Positions 7,749 through 34,228 of a stretch of 34,253 nucleotides of DNA are shown piece by piece. Source of the DNA: a virus. Positions within the stretch are counted from its first letter, which is position 1, and each line of letters opens with the position of its first letter. The position numbers and the translations under genes are program-made. The notes beneath the pieces were generated by a model. The model searched no databases, had not been told where the DNA came from, and saw only the letters and a program-made list of their open reading frames with translations. The stretch is taken from the IMG/VR virus record IMGVR_UViG_3300042889_000233, positions 1 to 34,253 of that record; one strand, 5' to 3'.

Positions 7749-7774
7749 AACCCGCCCTAAAAAGCGGGTTTTTT
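7749..7774 (+). terminator. Intrinsic terminator of the GP88 cassette
   Basis: AACCCGC (7749-7755) pairs with GCGGGTT (7764-7770), and the stem runs into a T-tract ending at 7774. A strong classical terminator for plus-strand transcripts. Confidence 0.88.
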
Positions 7775-7790
7775 GTTGTCTAAAATTTAA

Positions 7791-7811
7791 GGGGCTATAA
7801 GCTCTTTTTTT
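7791..7811 (+). terminator. Second, tandem terminator
   Basis: GGGGCT (7791-7796) can pair with AGCTCT (7800-7805) with two G-U pairs and a three-base loop, followed by seven T. It lies 17 bases after the first terminator, and would protect the convergent early operon. The sequence AAATTTAAGGGGCT before it also precedes the gene at 7522. Confidence 0.55.
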
Positions 7812-7851
7812 ACGTCAAGCATAGTAGATATGCACAAGGCTAAAAAACGGC

Positions 7852-8154
7852 TTAAAAGGGGCTTTTATCGGCTCTGGTGGGCATTTCCTCGCTTAGTTTG
7901 CGTATGGTTTCATTCAGGGCTGACAATTCGTCCATTTTATAGACGTTCCATAACCTACGTTGACCATGTATCCCGTTTAAACTCCCACGATGACAATCTG
8001 CACATAGTGGCATTGATGTGAACCATTGGCCTTGATTGATTTCGTGGCATTCGCTAGGTGCTGATGCGTCACAAATAATGCACGACATGGCCTTGATTCT
8101 AGCGATGTGTAATCTCTCGCTTGCAGTAGGTTTAGCCTTGTTTTTGCTTTGCAT
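7852..8154 (-). CDS. HNH-like zinc protein (Ref/recombination nuclease type)
   Basis: 100 residues from the ATG at 8154, which overlaps the upstream stop (TAATG); a longer start with 18 more residues is less likely. Zinc ligands are visible: MSCIICDA, then SECHEINQGQWF, then LCADCHRGSLNGIHG. The C-terminus has a MDELSALNETIRKL helix. This pattern is that of small phage HNH-like proteins related to the P1 Ref recombination nuclease, though Ref-like activity is inferred. It is the last gene of the early minus-strand operon. Confidence 0.75.
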   Translation of the reverse strand: MQSKNKAKPTASERLHIARIKAMSCIICDASAPSECHEINQGQWFTSMPLCADCHRGSLNGIHGQRRLWNVYKMDELSALNETIRKLSEEMPTRADKSPF

Positions 8155-9519: not shown

Positions 9520-9752
9520 ACATCTTCGGTTTTGTAGTTCAGTTTGTGGTTCTGAAACCGCATGGCTGCCTCAATGTCTAGTTCTTTGAATTGCTCGTCA
9601 GAGAATAGCCCTATGACATTGCGACCCTCAAACCAAACCTCTTTGATGGACTCGTTATAGGTTGTCTCTCCATCGTTTTCATACTCGTAAACGACAGTAA
9701 CCACTTCGCTGCCAGCACCTACTGTTGTGTCAAATTCCCAAGTTTTTTCCAT
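9516..9752 (-). CDS. Conserved small early protein
   Basis: 78 residues, acidic, mostly beta at the N-terminus (WEFDTTVGAGSEVVTVVYEY) and then VWFEGRNVIGLFSDEQF and MRFQNHKLN. No family name I can give with certainty. It has an excellent ribosome site (AACAGGAGTGAATC then ATG), and so may begin a new translational unit after RusA. Confidence 0.65.
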   Translation of the reverse strand: MEKTWEFDTTVGAGSEVVTVVYEYENDGETTYNESIKEVWFEGRNVIGLFSDEQFKELDIEAAMRFQNHKLNYKTEDV

Positions 9753-10797: not shown

Positions 10798-11238
10798 TCA
10801 TTTCCTTAGTTGGGCTAATCTAGCTCTGATGTGGTCTGGCATTGGTGAGGCTTTTTTGTTGTCAGCCTCAATCTTGGCAAGGGCAGGGTCAATTTGCACT
10901 TCAACTTTGATCCCGAATGATTCAGGAATCTCAGCCCCATCCCATCGTTGTTGGTTCAGATAGACCAAAGGTGCGGGAATGAAAGCACCATCGTCTTTTC
11001 TCCAAGCATCTGTGGTTTTCATCCACTCTATGTGTTTGATGACCTGATCTGCACAGGTATCACAGTAAAACTTCTTCCATTTCACTCTACAGGCAGACTT
11101 ACCGCCTTTTCTGAATGATTTAGGCCAAGTCTCCCAGAATCTCTCAAAGTTATCCATGTTGTTTTCTTTAGACATAGGTTCTCCAAGGGTGGATAGAGGG
11201 GTTTCTATCCGACCTTCTCCAAGCATTATGGTATTCAT
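10798..11238 (-). CDS. Replication protein, helicase-loader-like C-terminal module
   Basis: 146 residues. The core FERFWETWPKSFRKGGKSAC, then KWKKFY, then WRKDDGAFIPAPLVYLNQQRW is the module at the C-terminus of many phage O-like replication proteins that recruit host helicase. Here the usual N-terminal DNA-binding domain is missing, so it may be a stand-alone loader. Two CxxC-spaced cysteines (YCDTC) are present. It starts with a very strong ribosome site (CAATAGGAGTCAATA then ATG), the same 18 bases that precede the gene at 14196. It is the first gene after the structured early leader and the only obvious replication initiator in the genome. Confidence 0.72.
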   Translation of the reverse strand: MNTIMLGEGRIETPLSTLGEPMSKENNMDNFERFWETWPKSFRKGGKSACRVKWKKFYCDTCADQVIKHIEWMKTTDAWRKDDGAFIPAPLVYLNQQRWDGAEIPESFGIKVEVQIDPALAKIEADNKKASPMPDHIRARLAQLRK

Positions 11239-11456
11239 TATTGACTCCTATTGACTTAAATACAAAACGCCCCAAGTGCGCATGACGAGTTAATTCGCTT
11301 ATACATTTGGCCTTGTTCCACCGTTGTACCAAATGCTTTACCAGTCGCTTAACCAACGCTGGTCGGCAAACAGGGGGTGTTTCCTGATGTCGGTGTTTTC
11401 TTCCAAGCCATCCATGCAGATGCACTACTATCGTGTGGAGTACGGAAGCTATGATA
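11239..11456 (-). other. Non-coding leader between the early RNA and the first early gene
   Basis: No convincing gene in 218 bases. On the minus strand there are hairpins: CATTTGG/CCAAATG (11304-11310 with 11329-11335, perfect) and ACCAG/CTGGT (11340-11344 with 11359-11363). Open frames that cross it on either strand look random. It probably forms a structured 5' untranslated region. Confidence 0.55.
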
Positions 11457-11581
11457 GAAATAAAAAAGCCGCTTGCAACTGCCCTCTGGTGGTAGTCTTT
11501 CCTAAATTCACTCCTACTGGAACTTAGGAAAGACAGAGAGCATGTGCAAACGGCCTTAACATTGTTACCTACCACAGCAAC
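11457..11581 (-). ncRNA. Structured early RNA ending in a U-tract (attenuator or small RNA)
   Basis: Minus-strand transcript of about 120 bases from the promoter at 11588-11614. It folds into one rod. Helix 1 pairs 11545-11554 with 11468-11477 (10 bp). Helix 2 pairs 11535-11541 with 11481-11487 (7 bp, one G-U). Helix 3 pairs 11524-11534 with 11495-11505 (11 bp, perfect). An 18-base loop holds AGTAGGAGTGAAT, which looks like the phage's own ribosome sites. Six U follow helix 1 directly, as in an intrinsic terminator. It could be an attenuator for the early operon or a separate small RNA. I do not recognise a known RNA family. Confidence 0.65.
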
Positions 11582-11587
11582 AACTTT

Positions 11588-11614
11588 ATTGTACACAACT
11601 TTTTATTGTGTCAA
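11588..11614 (-). promoter_or_regulatory. Sigma-70 promoter for the early minus-strand operon
   Basis: On the minus strand TTGACA (11609-11614, perfect) and TACAAT (11588-11593, five of six) are 15 bases apart, slightly short. TTGTGTACAA, a near palindrome, overlaps the -10 box, and could be an operator. Expected start near 11581, just before the structured RNA. It begins ten bases after the stop of the winged-helix-like gene. Confidence 0.7.
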
Positions 11615-11624
11615 GAGGTTTTTT

Positions 11625-11987
11625 TCAAATAAATTGATTATTTGTGATTTCATTTGTTGGTTTTCTGCCAAACAAACGAATAGCTTGGTTGTTCATAGAA
11701 GCATATTCAGCCTTAGAAAAGATGCCTTTAGCGTTCCTGATGTCAAAGGGATTTAGCAGATCACGAGGCTCTTCTACCTTTTCAGCCTCAATCATGTGTG
11801 GTTCTAGGGTGTACTGAGAAACCCATGACCGACCTAACTTAATTTTCCCAATTTTTAATTTCTTCTTGTAGCTCATCTTTGTGCAACAAGCTGCAATAGA
11901 CAATCTTGGTATGCCAGTTAAATCCTCTAGTTGGTAGGACGTAAGTGGGCCGTTTTGTAATGCTCTGATAACTGCTTCTTGGGTCAT
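11625..11987 (-). CDS. Winged-helix DNA-binding protein, putative early regulator
   Basis: 120 residues. The N-terminal 60 form a likely winged helix: MTQEAVIRALQNGPLTSYQL, then EDLTGIPRLSIAACCTKMSYKKKLKIG as turn and recognition helix, then strands of the wing. The C-terminus is polar, with DLLNPFDIRNAKGIF. Same general type as ROI-like or MarR-like phage regulators. It lies just upstream of the early promoter and next to the divergent region 12164-12295, so it is a good candidate to control one or both. Target unproven. Confidence 0.68.
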   Translation of the reverse strand: MTQEAVIRALQNGPLTSYQLEDLTGIPRLSIAACCTKMSYKKKLKIGKIKLGRSWVSQYTLEPHMIEAEKVEEPRDLLNPFDIRNAKGIFSKAEYASMNNQAIRLFGRKPTNEITNNQFI

Positions 11988-33265: not shown

Positions 33266-34228
33266 TTAGGCTGGAACTGCTAACGCAAATGCGCTAGAAG
33301 ACAAAGCTGCACCAGTTGTGGCGGCTGTACGCATTGCTTTCACACCATAAAGTGTGTCAGATGTGAACAAGGTAGCCAAGAAGTCTTGCTTGTACTGAGT
33401 CTGTGAACGGATGCCCACTTGCTCAACCAAAACCATAGAGTCCTTGTGACCCATCAAGCAGATACGATCAGTGGTGGAGTTACCAGCACCAGTATCAGCA
33501 TTGCTAGATGTATACACGGGGATACCATACAGTTGACCGATTTCACCATTGCGAATGGCATTACCATTACCCACAAAAGCCTGTTCTGTGTAACGGGCAA
33601 GACCCATCAACGTATTGCGGCTTGAAGGAGGAATGATAAAGAAGCGACCATCCATAGGAGTGTCGTTGTCATCCAAACGCTGAATAGTGCGACGAATAGC
33701 AGCATCAGTCAATGCGGAAGCATTGGATGTAGTGCTGTTATAAGCAGTTGTACCATCACCGCCAATGAAGGCTTTAGTGGTAGTGTTGCTTGTTGCATAG
33801 TCATCAGTACCGACAGTAGCACCATTGAATGCACGACCCAATTGGATCAAGCTAGTGTCTACTTGCTTGGCAAGCGCATAGCCCGCATCAGCAGTGTAGA
33901 ACTGGCGCAAGCTGTTCAAGGCTTGTGCTTCAACGATGTCCTCAATGAAACGTGAATACTCAAAGTGTTGGTTAATGTTAACCAGAACTTCTGTCTCAGT
34001 TGCGGCAATCAGAGTAACGGCAGTAGATGCCGCTTTTGCTGAAGCAGAACCACGGGTAGGTGCGGGAATGTGAACTACATCGCCCTTTTTACCTTTGAAG
34101 TTCATCTTCATTACGATGTTAGCCAGAACAAGGTTTTTCTTGTAAGCGGCTACGATTTCGTCAGACCAGATTTCTGGAATGAACGTTGCTGCGGTGGTTA
34201 CTGTTACCGCTGGTGTTGGATATGCCAT
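33266..34228 (-). CDS. Major capsid protein
   Basis: 320 residues. MAYPTPAVTVTTAATFIPEI, then IVAAYKKNLVLANIVMKMNF, VVHIPAPTRG, FEYSRFIEDIVEAQAL and YALAKQVDTSLIQLGR. This is a HK97-fold coat protein of the kind in many short-tailed phages; length is typical. The late part (DNDTPMDGRFFIIPPSSRNTL, GEIGQLYGIPVYTSSN) fits the same family. Ribosome site TTAGGAGATTTAATC before ATG. The scaffold gene lies upstream across the circle junction. Followed by a terminator. Confidence 0.92.
   Translation of the reverse strand: MAYPTPAVTVTTAATFIPEIWSDEIVAAYKKNLVLANIVMKMNFKGKKGDVVHIPAPTRGSASAKAASTAVTLIAATETEVLVNINQHFEYSRFIEDIVEAQALNSLRQFYTADAGYALAKQVDTSLIQLGRAFNGATVGTDDYATSNTTTKAFIGGDGTTAYNSTTSNASALTDAAIRRTIQRLDDNDTPMDGRFFIIPPSSRNTLMGLARYTEQAFVGNGNAIRNGEIGQLYGIPVYTSSNADTGAGNSTTDRICLMGHKDSMVLVEQVGIRSQTQYKQDFLATLFTSDTLYGVKAMRTAATTGAALSSSAFALAVPA

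Follow-up and report, generated by a model that had tools for sequence, protein, structure and literature searches.

What is the role of a short, strongly folded RNA that carries its own promoter and terminator and lies upstream of the replication genes of a phage? The window analyzed here, an IMG/VR virus record of 34,253 bases, contains such an RNA (RNA1) on its minus strand. The original prediction treated it as a single, rod-shaped element of an unrecognised family and offered three roles: an attenuator of the early operon, a small regulatory RNA or a decoy for ribosomes. RNA1 is real, but it is one half of a two-RNA unit, whose second member (RNA2, 11445-11170, also on the minus strand) had been overlooked.

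Structure and Promoter of RNA1

RNA1 consists of a 5' hairpin (P1), a rod of three stacked helices (P2, P3 and P4) and an intrinsic terminator:

11462-11584, minus strand: RNA1 as a whole, with P1, the rod P2/P3/P4 and an intrinsic terminator with U6 (fold z-score and covariance model R1)
11564-11581, minus strand: hairpin P1 (GTTGC/GTAAC), whose loop carries the pseudoknot strand GTGGTAG (11575-11569)
11489-11495, minus strand: pseudoknot partner CTACCAC, within the bulge between P4 and P3 (complementarity across relatives)
11588-11614, minus strand: RNA1 promoter as read from the sequence, TTGACA (11614-11609), a 15-nt spacer and TACAAT (11593-11588)

The two promoter hexamers, the helices of 10 bp (P2, GCCGTTTGCA/TGCAAGCGGC), 7 bp (P3) and 11 bp (P4) and the six T residues after the helices (11467-11462) are all present on the minus strand, as originally described. 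The MFE of RNA1 is -58.5 kcal/mol versus -31.4 +/- 3.65 in shuffled sequences (z -7.43), and none of 200 shuffles folds as well; the plus strand at the same site folds less well (z -3.95). The description as a rod captured the stacked helices but missed P1 and the pairing of its loop (11575-11569) with the rod bulge (11495-11489), in which base 11495 is common to the pseudoknot partner and the last P4 pair. RNA1 is therefore a pseudoknotted structured RNA and more than a plain rod. Few of its unpaired bases are conserved, and no antiterminator or other alternative fold is visible in it, alternatives being seen only in RNA2.

The promoter and terminator proposed for this early region are both there, although the 15-nt spacer falls outside the usual rule of 16-18 nt. 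In scans that assume a sigma-70 consensus, applied to relatives that are mostly IMG/VR fragments, a promoter score of at least 9/12 is reached by 43 of 89 distinct relatives of RNA1 (type A, see below) versus 2.7% of shuffles. The window falls below this score because of its spacer, and many relatives have better promoters. Of the 89, 86 have a -10-like hexamer (A2, T6) whose last base lies 6-7 nt ahead of P1. Within the spacer of the window lies a dyad, ACACAA...TTGTGT, which is retained in close relatives; a Cro-like or HTH protein may use it as an operator.

Covariation and Distribution of RNA1

About 300 related loci were gathered via proteins and DNA patterns; in dozens of these, RNA1 can be aligned ahead of the same gene. 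Every subgroup aligned shows complementarity between the P1 loop and the rod bulge, with different letters each time. Counted systematically, 84 of 90 distinct type-A relatives pair at 7/7 positions through 23 distinct loop 7-mers, whereas loops permuted among relatives give 7/7 pairing in 10.7%. In the alignments made in this analysis, the nested helices are paired in 97.5% of cells and the pseudoknot in 100% (A3); helices and pseudoknot together reach 98.4%, versus at most 42% after a shift of 1 or 2 columns. Covariation among homologues, whose absence the original prediction had named as evidence against it, is found, with a score of 0.592 versus 0.262 in shuffles.

The covariance model R1, trained on 24 relatives, recovers relatives outside the training set (8.7e-25 to 1e-7). 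One match (4e-24) lies on a phage contig that had been binned with a Comamonadaceae MAG; another (1.1e-7) comes from a separate phage, the Manatee Spring siphovirus MW202545.1. In MW202545.1 (L327, 2992-3248), the RNA1 relative follows an array of six tRNAs and stands directly before Betaproteobacteria-1 RNA (RF02932), without RNA2. RNA1 is placed after tRNA genes in two phages, one of which has RF02932 where RNA2 would be; it is portable between genomic contexts. A weak R1 match at 7769-7868 (E 0.036) was rejected, as it showed no RNA1-like structure on reading.

A Second Structured RNA before the Replication Operon

RNA2 lies downstream of the RNA1 terminator and leads into the leftward operon:

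11170-11445, minus strand: RNA2 (3' part, RNA3), a second non-coding RNA with structure, located after the RNA1 terminator and before the replication gene
11288-11354, minus strand: RNA2 pseudoknot, hairpin-loop strand 11354-11349 with 11293-11288
11184-11322, minus strand: RNA2 long-range pairings, GGTGG (11322-11318) with CCACC (11192-11188) and CAAG (11315-11312) with CTTG (11187-11184)
10798-11175, minus strand: first gene of the leftward operon, a 125-aa protein with its probable start in CCTATG, a start further in being possible

RNA2 is larger and much more conserved than RNA1, and the block also exceeds its surroundings in conservation. Its architecture comprises several helices, a pseudoknot and a long-range pairing in competition with a hairpin located ahead of the first gene of the operon. 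In 34 diverse sequences, 94.5% of 1390 pair cells are formed versus 45% when slid by one column, 277 cells are changed on both sides, and the covariation is 0.547 versus 0.181 in shuffled alignments. The pseudoknot is paired in 100% of cells in these 34 sequences, with double changes in four pairs, and its most variable pair has no exception in 131 distinct sequences. The long-range pairings connect a loop to the strand just ahead of the start region of the first gene. The first reads GGTGG/CCACC in 115 of 120 sequences and GGTGA/TCACC in 4, and the second CAAG/CTTG in 102 and CTAG/CTAG in 12 of the 120. GGTGG/CCACC is the firmer of the two, given that they cross and that shared ancestry may account in part for the second. 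The CCACC strand is also paired at three or more of its five positions in the local hairpin in 113 of 120. Judging from the G-U pairs, it is the minus strand of RNA2 that folds, the strand on which RNA1 also lies. Both RNAs have clearly been preserved by evolution.

A coding role for RNA2 was rejected, since relatives carry frame-breaking indels and stops and one locus (L002) has the same 3' sequence without a start codon. An ORF of 146 aa (window 10798-11238) begins within RNA2; the true start of the first gene is probably 11175 or further in (125 aa or less). In MW202484.1, RNA2 (33533-33892, L328) underlies the annotated hypothetical protein UOF77725.1, which is probably a spurious ORF annotation and not a gene. 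RNA2 is present in at least 119 viral contigs. Among the cellular genomes screened, one RNA2 pattern gave a single match, in a Comamonadaceae MAG on a contig with phage-like genes, and the other pattern gave none.

The family had been called unrecognised, and the searches agree: Rfam 15 gives no match in the window at gathering thresholds, a permissive search of 11200-11660 returns only chance-level miRNA and snoRNA matches, and related loci have no match above threshold on RNA1 or RNA2. No paper on either RNA was found in the open literature searched.

The Slot before RNA2 and the Neighboring Genes

In most cases, 18-28 nt separate the RNA1 stem from RNA2. Among loci with upstream sequence, RNA2 is always preceded by RNA1 or by another RNA that ends in a terminator. 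The 137 distinct upstream regions divide into type A (90, the RNA1 type), type B (26), type C (9), type D (3) and 9 others that were not classed by script, those inspected by eye being B or D variants or a further type. Type D, by eye, resembles type A with a longer loop. Types B (L206, L240, L248 and others) and C (L203, L225 and others) occupy the slot of RNA1 and are unrelated to it in sequence; model R1 gives no match to the examples L206, L203 and L248. In single-sequence folds, on which their structures rest, and by eye, both types likewise have a hairpin at the start and a terminator at the end.

Downstream of this block, the leftward operon contains a replication-initiator-like gene and RusA, and genes for Sak, SSB and HNH proteins lie divergently on the other side. 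The 125-aa protein is similar to the C-terminal portion of initiators of phage replication (phrog_9474, 4.4e-15), matching residues 177-275 of the 288 in the profile, and the first ORF behind RNA2 belongs to the same replication-gene family in 87 of 106 loci. In MW202484.1, the gene order is cro, HTH, RNA1, RNA2 and rusA. The start of a capsid-like gene (MAYPTPAV...) is found with small differences at both ends of the window contig (1-178 and 33266-34228), which perhaps represents a circular genome assembled from a mixed population.

A Promoter-Proximal Terminator or a Free RNA?

Judged from sequence, fold and position, the leading explanation is that RNA1 acts as a promoter-proximal termination module (attenuator) heading the leftward replication operon, a reading to which we assign a probability of just under one half (about 0.48). 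Transcription would start at the 5' hairpin of RNA1, and most transcripts would end at the intrinsic terminator formed by the base of the rod, as a stable RNA of about 123 nt. If efficient, this pseudoknot-locked terminator would limit how much transcription reaches RNA2 and the replication operon; transcripts that read through would continue into RNA2, a pseudoknotted leader. There, CCACC could act as a regulatory switch by pairing either with the far RNA2 loop or with the local hairpin just before the first gene; both alternatives are conserved. An intrinsic terminator does sit between the RNA1 promoter and the operon, the rod and pseudoknot of RNA1 covary, and at RNA2 loci with enough upstream sequence the slot holds a terminator-ending RNA, with the spacing given above for RNA1. 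Promoter-like sites near the start of RNA2 occur in only 2 of 118 sequences in the sigma-70 scan; RNA2 is therefore probably reached by read-through of the terminator. The strict order of promoter, RNA1 with its terminator, RNA2 without a promoter and replication operon favors a termination module, and the lambda P_R-like order in MW202484.1 is consistent with it. On the other hand, the single visible fold of RNA1 and its few conserved unpaired bases give no sign of regulated termination, RNA2 may have a promoter that a sigma-70 scan does not see, and RNA1 is also found where RNA2 is absent, between a tRNA array and RF02932, as a free RNA would be.

The main rival is that RNA1 is a stable trans-acting small RNA with a host or phage target, perhaps bound by protein, whose terminator merely forms its 3' end, while RNA2 is expressed separately. 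The structure of RNA1 has a promoter of its own on the 5' side and closes with a terminator on the 3' side, and the constant position of the -10-like hexamer before P1 implies an RNA that is closed from its first to its last base. This closed form, the occurrence between tRNAs and RF02932 and the exchange for type B and C scaffolds, which cannot be aligned with RNA1 but share the layout of a 5' hairpin and a rod, favor a free RNA that has an independent role. Conversely, the strict adjacency to RNA2, an apical loop that is not conserved and a complementarity to the rest of the phage that is as ordinary as in shuffled sequences make a separate trans-acting role rather unlikely. The roles of attenuator and free small RNA are not mutually exclusive. 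Another reading, tentative and less likely than not, is that an exchangeable, pseudoknot-locked short RNA with at least three unrelated scaffolds and a conserved, multiply pseudoknotted RNA2 of about 275 nt at the head of the replication operon could form a two-part device, a machine of its own and no ordinary attenuator or leader.

Other explanations are less probable. The block might serve as an origin of replication that makes a primer or an activating transcript: the adjoining replication gene is without the N-terminal domain of its relatives, and a place beside such a gene is where lambda-type origins are situated. However, the pseudoknots and the G-U pairs on one strand point to a folded RNA, which renders an origin improbable; no direct repeats or iterons were found in 11150-11660. 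Little more credible is the proposal that RNA1 or the other slot scaffolds are counter-defence RNAs, acting as decoys for a host RNA-sensing or toxin-antitoxin system. Such a role would account for the way in which unrelated scaffolds of similar layout replace each other in the slot, and a phage RNA that mimics a type III antitoxin is a precedent (PMC3475682), but repeats of the ToxI kind are not seen and the adjacency to RNA2 is left unexplained. RNA1 could also be no more than an ordinary terminator for the HTH gene upstream, its additional structure having arisen by chance. The good terminator at its end agrees with this view; the view is already contradicted by covariation, as P1, the pseudoknot and the constant position of the promoter covary or are conserved, and is very improbable. 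The proposed ribosome decoy drew on the apical loop of the window (AGTAGGAGTGAAT), whose likeness to the SD regions of the genes at 9752 and 12296 is confirmed. Only 6 of 90 distinct relatives carry AGGAG in their apical part, so a decoy is refuted as a general function and is hardly credible for RNA1 at all.

Significance and Relation to Known Systems

RNA1 and RNA2 represent two strongly covarying RNA families that are absent from Rfam 15 and lie before the replication genes of many freshwater phages, and RNA2 is partly hidden in the public record under a probably spurious ORF annotation. If these RNAs control entry into DNA replication, they would form an RNA-based early switch in a large group of uncultured phages. 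It is unusual for evolution to exchange unrelated scaffolds within a single slot, a pattern that is open to direct testing.

In type III toxin-antitoxin systems, ToxI is a pseudoknotted RNA followed by a terminator. ToxI forms tandem repeats ahead of the toxin gene, whereas RNA1 has no tandem repeats. The GGUGG loop and CC-rich strand of RNA2 and its internal loop GGUAAC...AGGCC presumably recall the T-box bulge and the T-loop module; assignment of RNA2 as a T-box riboswitch or an RNase P specificity domain is not supported, as Rfam gives no match at permissive thresholds either. The c4 antisense RNA of P1/P7 (RF01695) and the CI RNA of P4 are short phage RNAs of early leaders that control early transcription (c4 is reviewed in PMC12197685). 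Both work through antisense pairing, whereas RNA1 is without an Rfam match and without a notable complement elsewhere in the phage, the longest being 11 nt versus 10-13 nt in shuffles. Betaproteobacteria-1 RNA takes the place of RNA2 3' of the RNA1 relative in MW202545.1, but its model gives no match to RNA2. Burkholderiales genomes with RF02932 were discarded as hosts of RNA1 after inspection upstream of RF02932 in those sampled showed no RNA1-like element.

A further likeness is to put of HK022 and nut/tR1 of lambda, which serve in antitermination and termination of early operons. As in these systems, a structured RNA and a terminator lie close to an early promoter beside cro and the replication genes, and the order in MW202484.1 resembles the layout at P_R of lambda. 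The put sites differ in that they are two simple hairpins upstream of the terminators that they overcome, whereas RNA1 is a pseudoknotted RNA that itself ends in the terminator and is followed by a second large RNA.
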